64,000 bases of DNA. Origin: an uncultured Saprospiraceae bacterium (GTDB taxonomy: Bacteria; Bacteroidota; Bacteroidia; Chitinophagales; Saprospiraceae). The stretch lies in the NCBI GenBank assembly GCA_937974625.1, contig CALJVJ010000017.1:1-64000 (forward strand), written 5' to 3'. Of this stretch, positions 1-20,410 are shown in pieces. The notes beneath the pieces were generated by a model that ran no database searches, was not told the origin of the DNA, and worked only from the letters and a program-made list of their open reading frames with translations. Position 1 is the first letter of the stretch; every line of letters starts with the position of its first letter. Position numbers and translations under genes: made by a program.

Positions 1-219
1 TTTGTTTAAATCGCTCCGCGTAAACAAACGGCAACCGCCACCAAATTAAACGTGTTCCTAGACGTTGAGCCTAAGTGCTAAAGGTATAATTCTAATTTTT
101 AATAAATTACATATTACCATTTTACATTGTCCAGTAGAATAGTGTTTCCTCTAGTTAAGCAATAAAAATATATTTAGATTCTCTTCAAAGAAGCTGAATT
201 TATTTTTAATTTACTCCTA

Positions 220-400
220 AGAAATGAAAATTAAATAAGTTAGACCATGATACGCAGTTATTTTGTTTTCTAATGAGGCAAAAAACGCAGACATAGCACC
301 GCTATGGCGAGCCTGCCTGCCGGCAGAGGCAGGTATTTTTAACGAAATTAGAAGACTAAAGAACAAGTAGCTTGGCTAAAGTTATTTATTTTTCATTTCT
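220..400. repeat. Long imperfect palindrome, CATAGC family copy 1
   Basis: This gene-free left end (1-437) holds a palindrome about 180 bp long. Its centre is CATAGC (292-297), ACC, GCTATG (301-306). The arms pair with mismatches over their length, out to AGAAATGAAAA at 220-230 and its complement ending at 400. A short GC-rich palindrome, CCTGCC...GGCAGG (312-333), lies only in the right arm and looks like a nested insertion. Related elements occur at 20083-20250 and 36324-36441. I see no other gene in 1-437. A small inverted repeat, TTTGTTTA (1-8) with TAAACAAA (21-28), is at the very edge. Confidence 0.7.
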
Positions 401-437
401 AATACAGTCGCTAAGTTAACCATTAACAAGATTTATC

Positions 438-17226: not shown

Positions 17227-19977
17227 ATGATTAAGTACATCCCGTTACTTAGCCTTTTTTTCGTTTTCCTATTGGTCAAAAACGAAGCCTACACACAAGA
17301 TTTAATTGAAAGAACACAACTCGGAATTAAGCAACCTCCTACCACTGCAAAAAACCAATTAGCCAAATTGGTAGCTCAAAACAAACAAAGTGCCGCTAGA
17401 TTCAACGAATTTGCCCCTTTTGAAGTAAGTAAAACGGCGAATTCTCTTTTAGAAGGTTATGCCTTAGGAAGTATTAATTTGACCGTTAAAGCTGAACAAT
17501 TAGCTCATTTTATTAGGACCCAACCAGACGTTACTACCTTAAAAATTCCAGTAAACGAAAAATCTTTTATTGAATTAGACATTTACAAGGTCGATATTTT
17601 TTCTCAAGATTTTATTTTCCGTTCGAGTGAAGGGGAAGACTTGACAACAATGAACAATGGTGTTTTTTATAGAGGTATTGTCAAAGGAGATAACAACTCT
17701 ATAGTTTCCGTCAGTATTTTTGGTACAGAAATAAGAATAATGATTAGTGATGATGATGGTAATTACGTGATAGGTAAACTCAAAAATGAAAATGCCCATG
17801 TCCTATATAATGACAGGAACCTAACGTTGGACCAACCAGAAACTTGTGTGGTTGGAGATAATCAAAAATTAATTAAGGATGGTTTTAGACAACAAGTCGA
17901 AACTAAAGCTAGAAATAACATGGCTAAATGTATTCCGATTTATGTAGAATGTGATTTTGATATGTATCAGAAGCATAATAATTCGGAAGCCAGTGTGATT
18001 GCTTTCGTTAGTGCTTTAATAAATGAAGTCGCCACCATTTATGCCAACGAACAAATTGAAATTTCGCTTTCCGATTTAAAAGTTTGGACTACCACCGACC
18101 CTTATGCTAGCTTAAATAACACCAATGCGGTTTTGCAAAAATTCGGAGAATTGACTAAAAATAATTACAATGGAAGATTGGCTCACTTTATTTCTACGAG
18201 AGCATTAGGCGGAGGTATTGCGTGGATTGATGTGCTTTGTTCCAGTTATTTTACTTTTAGTGGTCAACATGCTGGGCCATATGCGGTTAGCGCAAACATG
18301 GGCACCTCCATTACTACTTTTCCAACTTACTCCTGGAACATTCAAGTTTTCGCTCACGAAATGGGACATAATATGGGTTCACAACATACCCAAAATTGTA
18401 GTTGGAATGGTAATAATACCGCTATTGATGCTTGTTCTCCTACCGAAGGGGGTTGTGCAAGTACTTATGGGGACTGCCCTCCAGGAGGAGGAACGATTAT
18501 GAGTTATTGTAATGCTACGAATTGTGGAATTGACTTTAATAACGGCTTTGGACAACAACCAGGAGAATTAATCAGAAATCGATACAATAATGCTACTTGT
18601 ACTTTATCTTGTGCTGCACCAACTTGTGATGATGGCGTTCAAAATGGAGATGAAACAGGAATAGATTGTGGAGGTAGCAACTGCAACACTTGTCCATGTT
18701 ATGCCAATGATATCAATCTCTCTCTAACCTTTGATAATTACCCTCAGGAAACCAGTTGGACGATTACCAATTCAACTGGTAATATCCTTTATTCTGGCAG
18801 CGGTTATACACAGGCAGGGGTAACCATAACCCCTTCTTTCACTTTGCCTCCAGCAGCAGGTTATACCTTCACCATTAATGACGCTTATAGTGATGGTATT
18901 TGCTGTGGATATGGTAATGGCGTATTTTCGTTAACAGATAATAATGGCGTTATCATTGCCACAGGTGGCGCATTTGATGCATTATATTCCGTAACCTTTT
19001 GTACAGAAAATAATGGAGGTCCATTAGACAATTGCCCAAATGACCCAAATAAAATAACCCCTGGTCTTTGTGGATGCGGAACACCTGACACAGACAGCGA
19101 TAATGACGGGACTCCCAATTGTAATGACGCTTGTCCTAATGACGCCAACAAAATTGCAGCGGGTGATTGTGGGTGCGGAATACCTGACACAGACAGCGAT
19201 AATGACGGGACTCCCAATTGTAATGATGCTTGTCCTAATGACGCCAACAAAATTGCAGCGGGTGATTGTGGATGTGGAACACCTGACACAGACAGCGATA
19301 ATGACGGAACCCCCAACTGTAATGATGCTTGTCCTAATGATGCCAATAAAATTGCAGCGGGTGATTGTGGATGTGGAATGGTGGATGAAGATTTAAATAA
19401 TAATGGAACTAGTGATTGCTTAGAAGCTTCCCTCTGCCCAGAAGACAGAAGTGTCAGCACTAATTTAATGGAAGGTACAGAGATGAATGCTCAGAAAACA
19501 ATTACTACCTCGGGAACCCTTACTATAACGGGAAATATGGTTTTCAAAGCAGGAAATACCATTCTTTTAAATCCTGGTTTTCATGCAAAAGCAGGTAGTA
19601 ATTTTAGTGCTATTATTCAAACCTGTTCGCCTACTAGTGGAAGTTTCCAAGATGAAGCTACGAGCCAAAGTCTTGAAAGAGTTGAAGGACATTCGTCCCT
19701 AAAATCTATTCAGCTCAAAACTTCTTTAACCGTTATGCCAAATCCATTCAGAAGTGAAACAACCATTCAATATCAATTAGCACAAACGGAACAAGTACTG
19801 ATTCAAGTAATGGATGTGAATGGCAGACTTGTCAAAGTTTTGGAAAACCAGACCACTAAAACTGCGGGGATGAATGAAGTAACGTTTTCAGGTACGACAT
19901 TGGATGGAGGCATGTATTTTGTTTTTCTAATAACGCCGACAAAAGTTTTGTCTCAGAAGATTATTTTGATAAAGTAG
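17227..19977 (+). CDS. Secreted reprolysin-like (M12B/M43 type) metalloprotease with T9SS sorting domain
   Basis: 916 residues with an N-terminal signal peptide (about 1-23). The propeptide region extends to about 230. The zinc site is HEMGHNMGSQH (His377, Glu378, His381, His387) and the Met-turn is IMSYCN. A Cys-rich segment (CDDGVQNGDETGIDCGG) and a beta-sandwich domain follow. Residues 601-732 are four 33-residue thrombospondin-3-like calcium repeats (DTDSDNDGTPNCNDACPND type). Then come a beta-strand domain (LMEGTEMNAQKTITTSGTL) and a type A sorting domain starting VMPNPFRSETTIQYQL and ending KIILIK. It should pass the outer membrane by T9SS and act on the surface or outside. The catalytic domain is secure; the substrate is unknown. 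No operon partner is visible. Confidence 0.93.
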   Translation: MIKYIPLLSLFFVFLLVKNEAYTQDLIERTQLGIKQPPTTAKNQLAKLVAQNKQSAARFNEFAPFEVSKTANSLLEGYALGSINLTVKAEQLAHFIRTQPDVTTLKIPVNEKSFIELDIYKVDIFSQDFIFRSSEGEDLTTMNNGVFYRGIVKGDNNSIVSVSIFGTEIRIMISDDDGNYVIGKLKNENAHVLYNDRNLTLDQPETCVVGDNQKLIKDGFRQQVETKARNNMAKCIPIYVECDFDMYQKHNNSEASVIAFVSALINEVATIYANEQIEISLSDLKVWTTTDPYASLNNTNAVLQKFGELTKNNYNGRLAHFISTRALGGGIAWIDVLCSSYFTFSGQHAGPYAVSANMGTSITTFPTYSWNIQVFAHEMGHNMGSQHTQNCSWNGNNTAIDACSPTEGGCASTYGDCPPGGGTIMSYCNATNCGIDFNNGFGQQPGELIRNRYNNATCTLSCAAPTCDDGVQNGDETGIDCGGSNCNTCPCYANDINLSLTFDNYPQETSWTITNSTGNILYSGSGYTQAGVTITPSFTLPPAAGYTFTINDAYSDGICCGYGNGVFSLTDNNGVIIATGGAFDALYSVTFCTENNGGPLDNCPNDPNKITPGLCGCGTPDTDSDNDGTPNCNDACPNDANKIAAGDCGCGIPDTDSDNDGTPNCNDACPNDANKIAAGDCGCGTPDTDSDNDGTPNCNDACPNDANKIAAGDCGCGMVDEDLNNNGTSDCLEASLCPEDRSVSTNLMEGTEMNAQKTITTSGTLTITGNMVFKAGNTILLNPGFHAKAGSNFSAIIQTCSPTSGSFQDEATSQSLERVEGHSSLKSIQLKTSLTVMPNPFRSETTIQYQLAQTEQVLIQVMDVNGRLVKVLENQTTKTAGMNEVTFSGTTLDGGMYFVFLITPTKVLSQKIILIK
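19027..19422 (+). repeat. 99-bp intragenic tandem repeat (calcium repeats)
   Basis: Four in-frame 99-bp units in the metalloprotease gene. The second and third are nearly identical in DNA as well as protein, which points to recent duplication and possible copy-number change. Each unit carries a DxDxDNDG calcium loop and paired cysteines. Confidence 0.93.
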
Positions 19978-20082
19978 GATTGTTGTTTAGTATGCTTTGA
20001 TTTTTATAAAACGCTTTATTTAGAAAAATCGAGTATCTCCTAGTCTTTGAGGGTTTTAGGTGAAAAATGATAAACTAATTGA

Positions 20083-20250
20083 TTAAGGGAGTAGGAAAAA
20101 TATAACCTACCCATTTTACTCGTTCTTTTTCCTTTATATTGCGTTGAAAATACTCGCCATAGCTACGGCTATGTCTGCGTTTTTCGCCTTATCTAAAGAA
20201 AAAATAACTTCTTAAAATTTGGGTACATTATTTATTTCCTACTCCCTAAA
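20083..20250. repeat. Long imperfect palindrome, CATAGC family copy 2
   Basis: About 168 bp. The centre is CATAGC (20158-20163), TACG, GCTATG (20168-20173). The arms pair out to GGGAGTAGGAAA (20087-20098) and TTTCCTACTCCC (20235-20246). The inner sequence GGCGAAAAACGCAGACATAGC matches copy 1 (220-400) in inverted orientation. The outer arms differ between copies but are self-complementary in each. It lies in the gap 19978-20410 with the terminator at 20258-20308. Confidence 0.78.
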
Positions 20251-20257
20251 ATAACTA

Positions 20258-20308
20258 TCCGAGTTATAAAAAATCCGTGTTATTTAATTTATAACTCGGA
20301 TTTTTTTT
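20258..20308 (+). terminator. Rho-independent terminator
   Basis: TCCGAGTTATAA (20258-20269) pairs with TTATAACTCGGA (20289-20300), followed by eight T residues. It lies 280 bp after the metalloprotease stop, beyond the palindromic element. Confidence 0.82.
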
Positions 20309-20410
20309 AACTCGGATTAGGCTTGTTTGACATTATAAATTTCCAATATTCAATAAAATAGTCATAAAGCATCGATTTCCTTTTTCTTAATGATCTATTT
20401 ATTACGATTT

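Follow-up and report, generated by a model that had tools for sequence, protein, structure and literature searches.

Short intergenic palindromes with a conserved centre and variable paired ends in Saprospiraceae and other bacteria

Long palindromes lie between genes in the DNA of an uncultured Saprospiraceae bacterium. The one studied here raises two questions: is it kept for its hairpin or is it a mobile repeat, and how do arms that differ from copy to copy stay complementary within each copy? A preliminary description had proposed selection for a long hairpin, or a MITE-like mobile palindrome that rebuilds its arms. We examine these proposals for the window, the whole stretch of 64,000 nucleotides of contig CALJVJ010000017.1 that was analysed, and for the copies of the element in its own genome (G000), in relatives and on plasmids.

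Copies in the window and in other genomes

The long palindrome described at 20083-20250 is real; the exact element, copy A, spans 20087-20246 with TAA on each side (Table 1). Its inner motif, GGC(A/G)AAAAACGCAGACATAGC, is common to two copies in inverted orientation, at 277-297 (plus strand) and 20168-20188 (minus strand), and was found 0 times in 100 shuffles. The outer arms of the two copies differ, each pairing with its own partner, as had been stated. Three elements had been claimed: a covariance-model search of the 64 kb recovered two (7.5e-30 and 4.2e-19) and no third, its only other row being a weak one on the opposite strand of the first copy (E 0.72).

Table 1. Coordinates of the two elements and their parts in the 64,000-nucleotide window
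Feature	Position	Strand	Basis or remark
Copy A, entire 160-bp element, a long imperfect hairpin	20087-20246	- (folding strand)	Covariance model 144.6 bits on -, 18.7 on +
Copy A, target-site duplication TAA, left	20084-20086	.	Sequence and family-wide flank statistics
Copy A, target-site duplication TAA, right	20247-20249	.	
Copy A, variable terminal arm, 5' side on folding strand, GGGAGTAGGAAAT	20234-20246	-	
Copy A, variable terminal arm, 3' side	20087-20099	-	Complements 20234-20246 except the innermost base
Copy A, conserved core, 5' half, GGCGAAAAACGCAGACATAGC	20168-20188	-	
Copy A, conserved core, 3' half, minus its first stem	20142-20163	-	
Copy A, core reading: GCTATGGCGAGTATTTTCAACG from 20173, or CATAGC-side repeat	20173 down to 20142	-	
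Copy A, central stem-loop CATAGC-CGTA-GCTATG	20158-20173	-	Stem shows compensatory change in other subfamilies
Copy B, second element; terminal arms differ from copy A, GAAATGAAAATTAAATAA...	221-399	+	
Copy B, target-site duplication TAA, left	218-220	.	
Copy B, target-site duplication TAA, right	400-402	.	
Copy B, conserved core, 5' half	277-297	+	
Copy B, small extra palindrome CCTGCCTGCCGGCAGAGGCAGG in 3' half of core	312-333	+	

The motifs CGCAG and GCGAG lie in a conserved internal loop of the core. Inserts that resemble the small CCTGCCTGCCGGCAGAGGCAGG palindrome of copy B, or are close variants of it, occur at loci L010 and L012, with none at L006 and L020. A palindrome TCCCGA...TCGGGA is seen near the same place of the core at L025, L049 and L193. 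A strong terminator-like hairpin at 20257-20317, with an arm that is partly repeated (CCGAGTTATAA), adjoins copy A; it is separate from the element and sits between genes that are convergent by eye.

A genome-wide search with the inner motif had been proposed as a check; with up to three mismatches allowed it finds 25 cores in the own genome, and 0 with a reversed control. Ten of these 25 lie no more than 160 bp from a contig end, which makes the elements a practical cause of broken assemblies; the real number of copies is probably larger. Copy number reaches 323 places in one relative (G091; slightly looser pattern, control 2). Within the family at most 109 of 199 genomes have at least one match, an upper bound because 8 of 30 loci fetched from relatives were judged by eye to be chance matches or unclear (L026, L029, L038, L045, L046, L047, L054 and L055). 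Among named genomes at least 113 stretches matched, with titles naming Saprospiraceae, Chitinophagales or Bacteroidetes at large, and the matches listed include a few Flavobacteriales, Bacteroidales and Sediminibacterium. A phylum-wide model search found the element in at least 7 of 395 genomes, a lower bound since only seven candidates per genome were scored, under strict filters; three of the seven belong to another family of the same class. In single-contig genomes of another family of that class, two loci (L261 in G391 and L265 in G299) hold diverged elements of similar layout with altered core loops.

Outside this phylum, DNA similarity identified the element on four Proteobacteria plasmids. 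A covariance model built from Bacteroidota loci only scores them at 3.7e-10 (Diaphorobacter), 1.9e-9 (Mitsuaria), 2.4e-7 (Cupriavidus) and 3.9e-16 (Martelella), and in the three plasmid copies that were folded the core strand is the stabler (-102 versus -92, -110 versus -108 and -95 versus -88). On Martelella mediterranea pMM593 two short core-like hairpins stand adjacent in one intergenic region (L332, 1400-1560), the second keeping CGCAG and GCGAG on a different stem, by eye. The Diaphorobacter sequence had no match in E. coli, viral contigs gave no exact match and phages no similarity match.

Rfam returned nothing above gathering score for 19900-20400 of the window. Rows at E <1 there belong to microRNA and small-RNA models and fall well short of the respective cut-offs; most of them cover the neighbouring hairpin, and one (E 0.046) spans copy A. 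One long element of genome G086 gave no Rfam match at E up to 1. A literature search that included the core strings yielded no description that we recognised; most subscription journals were outside its scope, so absence from print is unproven.

Conservation, pairing and strand

Conservation in these elements is the reverse of that usual in MITEs: the centre is conserved across phyla and the ends are not. Pairwise comparison of 44 representatives, each from a different end-cluster, gives a mean identity of 0.92 and 0.83 for the core halves; the terminal tips reach 0.36 and 0.35, and two further variable blocks 0.32-0.34.

The structure covaries. Alignment A1 comprises 44 of 53 references, nine having been left out. 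RNAalifold predicts 28 pairs, 20 of which carry changes on both sides in one or more sequences. A 56-pair structure has 83.3% of its cells paired versus 60.7% when shuffled, double-change cells number 591 versus 230, and the covariation score is 0.544 versus 0.177; none of 500 shuffles was as high on any of five measures. Sliding by 1-3 columns leaves 44-51% paired, a control that favours the unslid version because the outer-arm register in A1 was chosen on that alignment. Outside the terminal repeats, the central stem CATAGC/GCTATG changes in G091 to CATACC/GGTATG, CAGAGC/GCTCTG and GATAGC/GCTATC, and a core purine-pyrimidine pair (alignment pair 71/111) is A-U in 28 sequences, G-C in 13 and G-U in 2. 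At locus L262 (G006) an AAAAA/TTTTT stem has become GCGAA/TTCGC with the loop CGCAG and GCGAG kept. The terminal tips are 91% paired, better than the inner arms, as in classical inverted repeats. Relative to dinucleotide shuffles, a control akin to the one that the preliminary description had asked for, the 60 subfamily representatives fold to far lower energies (20 shuffles apiece; mean z -8.2 under RNA and -7.4 under DNA parameters). Neither outcome that the description had named as refuting it, a genome without further copies or pairing no better than in shuffled sequence, was seen.

Pairing is biased towards one strand. Mismatches and strand folding were scored on one element per end-cluster, for 60 clusters. 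Read on the core strand, arm mismatches are of G.T type in 201 cases versus 66 of A.C type, and G.T outnumbers A.C in 31 of the 34 outer columns that are informative, as it does in 40 of 46 clusters. Part of this excess is base composition, since swapping arms between clusters already yields 0.58 G.T over the outer 25 nt (maximum 0.64 in 200), versus an observed fraction of 0.76. Observed/expected ratios in the outer 34 nt are 0.66 for G.G (by eye partly one fixed position), 0.45 for G.T, 0.25 for G.A, 0.21 for A.A and T.T, 0.19 for A.C, 0.05 for C.T and 0.03 for C.C, so that complements differ in all three comparisons, G.G versus C.C, G.T versus A.C and G.A versus C.T. The order of the ratios resembles the ranking of mismatches by their stability within a folded strand. 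Strand bias is modest in the terminal tips (22 to 8). Of the two strands, the core strand folds the more stably in all 60 clusters under RNA parameters and in 58 under DNA parameters; the ordinary form of G086 folds about equally on both strands.

Selection for a hairpin, one half of the original proposal, thus holds in part, on the strength of the covariation and of the strand-biased wobble pairs. The proposal that the element rebuilds its arms is not supported. Copying from arm to arm, by template switching in the hairpin, would yield arms that differ between subfamilies and match within an element, as seen. Arm mismatches are however kept in common by the copies of a subfamily and are biased by strand, and such copying predicts neither feature; we regard this route as barely credible.

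Neighbouring genes show no preferred orientation relative to the folding strand. Genes were predicted close by on both sides of 111 elements, which divide into four orientation classes of 30, 30, 27 and 24. This evenness means that the folding strand is not set by host transcription, and we infer that it is set by a single-stranded stage or a transcript of the element itself. On contigs of G091 the matches listed, a part of the 323, lie on both strands (on contig C39, for example, six minus and two plus). A replication-strand check in G125 had four places with a looser pattern to work on, with a control of 2.

Movement, interior and the search for an enzyme

The copies are mobile, and insertion comes with a 3-bp duplication. 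In G086, where ends are uniform, identical TWA flanks border 23 of 25 distinct elements (13 TAA, 10 TTA), a sample that is not random, several members having been fetched for widely spaced ends. In the flank test across elements, which dropped 36 of 151 two-armed elements that had no terminal repeat by the criterion used, 36 of the remaining 115 have identical 3-bp flanks at one boundary offset; fifteen other offsets give 0-6, with one at 12. Taking the first matching offset of eight, 45 of 115 have TAA or TTA, 14 another triplet and 56 none, and where both flanks are TWA the middle base is the same in 43 and different in 12. Six copies of one subfamily in the own genome are 88-99% identical, with 40-bp flanks only 23-50% identical.

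The suggested comparison with empty sites was possible within the genus. At the locus of copy A the aligned flanks are 62 bp apart in G593, and by eye neither G593 nor G591 has an element in the sequence between the genes; as the intergenic DNA does not align, this is absence at the locus and not a base-exact empty site. Locus L035 has a duplicated segment with and without the element, its junction not clean. Mobility as first proposed is upheld in part. It is supported by the 3-bp TWA flanks, by the number of copies, by loci of the same genus that lack the element and by copies that resemble one another in unrelated surroundings. The element is short, non-coding and multi-copy, with terminal inverted repeats and a short target-site duplication, features that belong to MITEs in general.

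No coding frame of 100 codons is present in the elements tested: the longest start-to-stop frame is 99 codons among the 25 G086 elements (159-800 bp), and 23 and 35 codons in the two window copies. Half-cores were followed over 228 loci: where the left half had no right half close by, none turned up within 5 kb either, and the cases listed are chance matches, cuts at contig ends and copies whose right half is altered. The G086 end sequence occurs 361 times (control 28), of which 100 were listed and 30 fetched as loci, so an autonomous copy in G086 could be missed.

The core itself is not universal. Eleven of the 25 G086 elements are 159-160 bp long with the core motif; the other 14, of 200-800 bp, lack it by the pattern used, and most of these have duplicated flanks. 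Either the elements can do without an intact core, or their interiors were exchanged once they had inserted. The own genome contains a form with damaged or replaced core, GGCATGAATTC...CAGACATAGC, and in several of its copies the core is interrupted by a short insert, GAACCG...CGGATGGGGTGCC, with a motif similar to the G086 modules. Several of the longer G086 elements are filled with hairpin modules that have motifs such as GGAACCG and CGG(A/G)TGGG in common. Five of them (L298, L300, L301, L303 and L304; 450-710 bp, same ends) consist of modules of variable self-complementary stems with repeated linkers GAAGGAACCG and CGGRTGGGT, and modules appear to be inserted within modules.

What moves the elements? 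The simplest account of variable paired ends, a conserved loop, strand bias and even orientation is an enzyme that reads shape and acts on a folded single strand. We lean towards this account, tentatively and at rather less than an even chance: the copies would be MITE-like elements maintained through a folded single-stranded stage, with an enzyme that reads the fold. Short elements without genes, about 160 bp in the ordinary form, would be moved in trans. In the course of the mobile cycle one specific strand, as single-stranded DNA or as RNA, would fold from end to end into a hairpin, and this folded strand would be the mobile intermediate. The enzyme, of one kind for all subfamilies, would judge the fold by a paired stem base and, in the ordinary form, the internal loop CGCAG/GCGAG, with no fixed terminal sequence, and the element would be joined into a TTA or TAA site with the 3-bp duplication. 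Because pairing is what would matter, stems could drift through G.T intermediates and each subfamily could come to have its own terminal arms. Evidence against this account lies in the core-less and core-damaged copies, which are common, in the tips, which are the best-paired part, and in the search for an enzyme, which found none. The modest strand bias of the tips, the share of base composition in the G.T excess, the fixed position behind part of the G.G ratio, the TWA duplication and the near-equal folding of both strands in the ordinary G086 form count against it too.

The matching transposase that the preliminary description had proposed to look for did not appear: no insertion sequence with ends matching the element was found in what was searched. 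This bears on the main rival, according to which these are conventional MITEs, duplex DNA moved by subfamily-specific DDE transposases (IS5/PIF-like) along with which the ends diverge, the hairpin being selected separately, for example as an RNA that protects element or host. DDE transposases of the IS5/PIF kind leave a 3-bp duplication of TWA; the well-paired tips and the frequency of forms with core absent or damaged fit as well, and of the two families covered by the DDE searches, DDE_Tnp_1 and DDE_Tnp_4, the former has genes in all six genomes tested. Yet by eye no inverted repeat listed around 21 DDE_Tnp_1 loci looks like the ends of the element (loci L250 and L251 were left out of the end comparison), and DDE_Tnp_4 is in only three of eight genomes. 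The ends of subfamily 1 have 54 matches in the own genome; 30 loci were fetched, and in the 12 that were read no pair of ends encloses a gene, these loci holding paired short elements, relics or truncated ends. A centre more conserved than the ends also runs against the course of MITE decay, and the even gene orientation argues against selection on host mRNA. On balance we think the conventional account unlikely. Nor does any gene family recur beside the elements, the largest cluster among 464 neighbouring proteins covering four loci.

Two other routes would also use a folded strand. A Y1 (HUH, IS200/RAYT-like) transposase could move it as in REPINs or IS608; Y1 enzymes read hairpins on one strand, and Y1_Tnp genes are present in 147 of 199 genomes. 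However, there is no Y1_Tnp match in G091, a genome given as 100% complete with 323 copies, or in G049, with 23 copies, and the own genome has two, the best at E 3.8e-4. To our knowledge Y1 enzymes make no target duplication, which 23 of 25 G086 elements have, and we hold this route to be very unlikely. One G086 element has the open frame of a Y1 gene about 80 bp away. The second route is a retroposon, in which a hairpin RNA made from the element would be reverse-transcribed and inserted at TWA. It would explain single-strand folding with wobble pairs, ends constrained in structure only and the lack of an internal gene; against it, RVT_1 has no match in the high-copy genomes G000, G079, G086, G035 and G049 (G086 and G035 given as 100% complete), and it too seems to us most improbable. 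As some high-copy genomes have no match to Y1_Tnp and some none to RVT_1, movement seems to require neither an IS200-like route nor reverse transcription.

Relation to known systems

Transposon ends are normally the most conserved part of the element, because the transposase binds them. Here, across many genera and Proteobacteria plasmids, the sequence of the ends is hardly constrained and their pairing is, mainly on one strand, and addressing by fold rather than by sequence becomes directly testable. The full form of this reading, a structure-addressed mobile element in at least two phyla whose enzyme reads the shape of one folded strand and whose terminal sequences drift freely, we consider doubtful. 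If true, it would describe a distinct kind of transposition that joins hairpin recognition to a 3-bp target duplication, and nested structured modules (to about 800 bp in G086) would be carried without genes.

Several known systems share some of these properties. RIME elements of rhizobia (Alphaproteobacteria) are described as repeated intergenic elements with conservation of sequence and structure (PMC2573895). Our element model had 0 matches in 200 kb of S. meliloti pSymB, stretches in which the presence of RIME is unconfirmed. REP and REPIN sequences are intergenic palindromes thought to be moved in trans by RAYT (Y1) enzymes that read them as hairpins. REPs are given as 20-40 bp long; the elements here differ in their length of about 160-800 bp, their target duplication and their presence at high copy in a genome without a Y1_Tnp match. 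Mitochondrial double-hairpin elements are mobile, with structure conserved and sequence variable, and are alike in keeping structure while sequence varies; they belong to another kind of genome and are shorter, and we know of no core common to them and these elements.

Bacterial MITEs and small mobile repeats such as ERIC, NEMIS/Correia and Nezha have conserved ends that match an insertion sequence. Like ours they are short, intergenic and non-coding, have inverted repeats, a target duplication and many copies, and are thought to be moved in trans; unlike them, the elements described here have diverging ends, a centre conserved across phyla and pairing that is found mainly on one strand. The attC sites of integron cassettes are hairpins of variable sequence and conserved structure that are recognised on one folded strand, and in this structure-conserved, one-strand hairpin the two are alike. 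They differ in that attC has conserved end motifs, whereas the ends are among the least conserved parts of our element, and in that integrons involve a cassette gene and no 3-bp duplication, whereas here a conserved centre without a gene is found in dispersed insertions.
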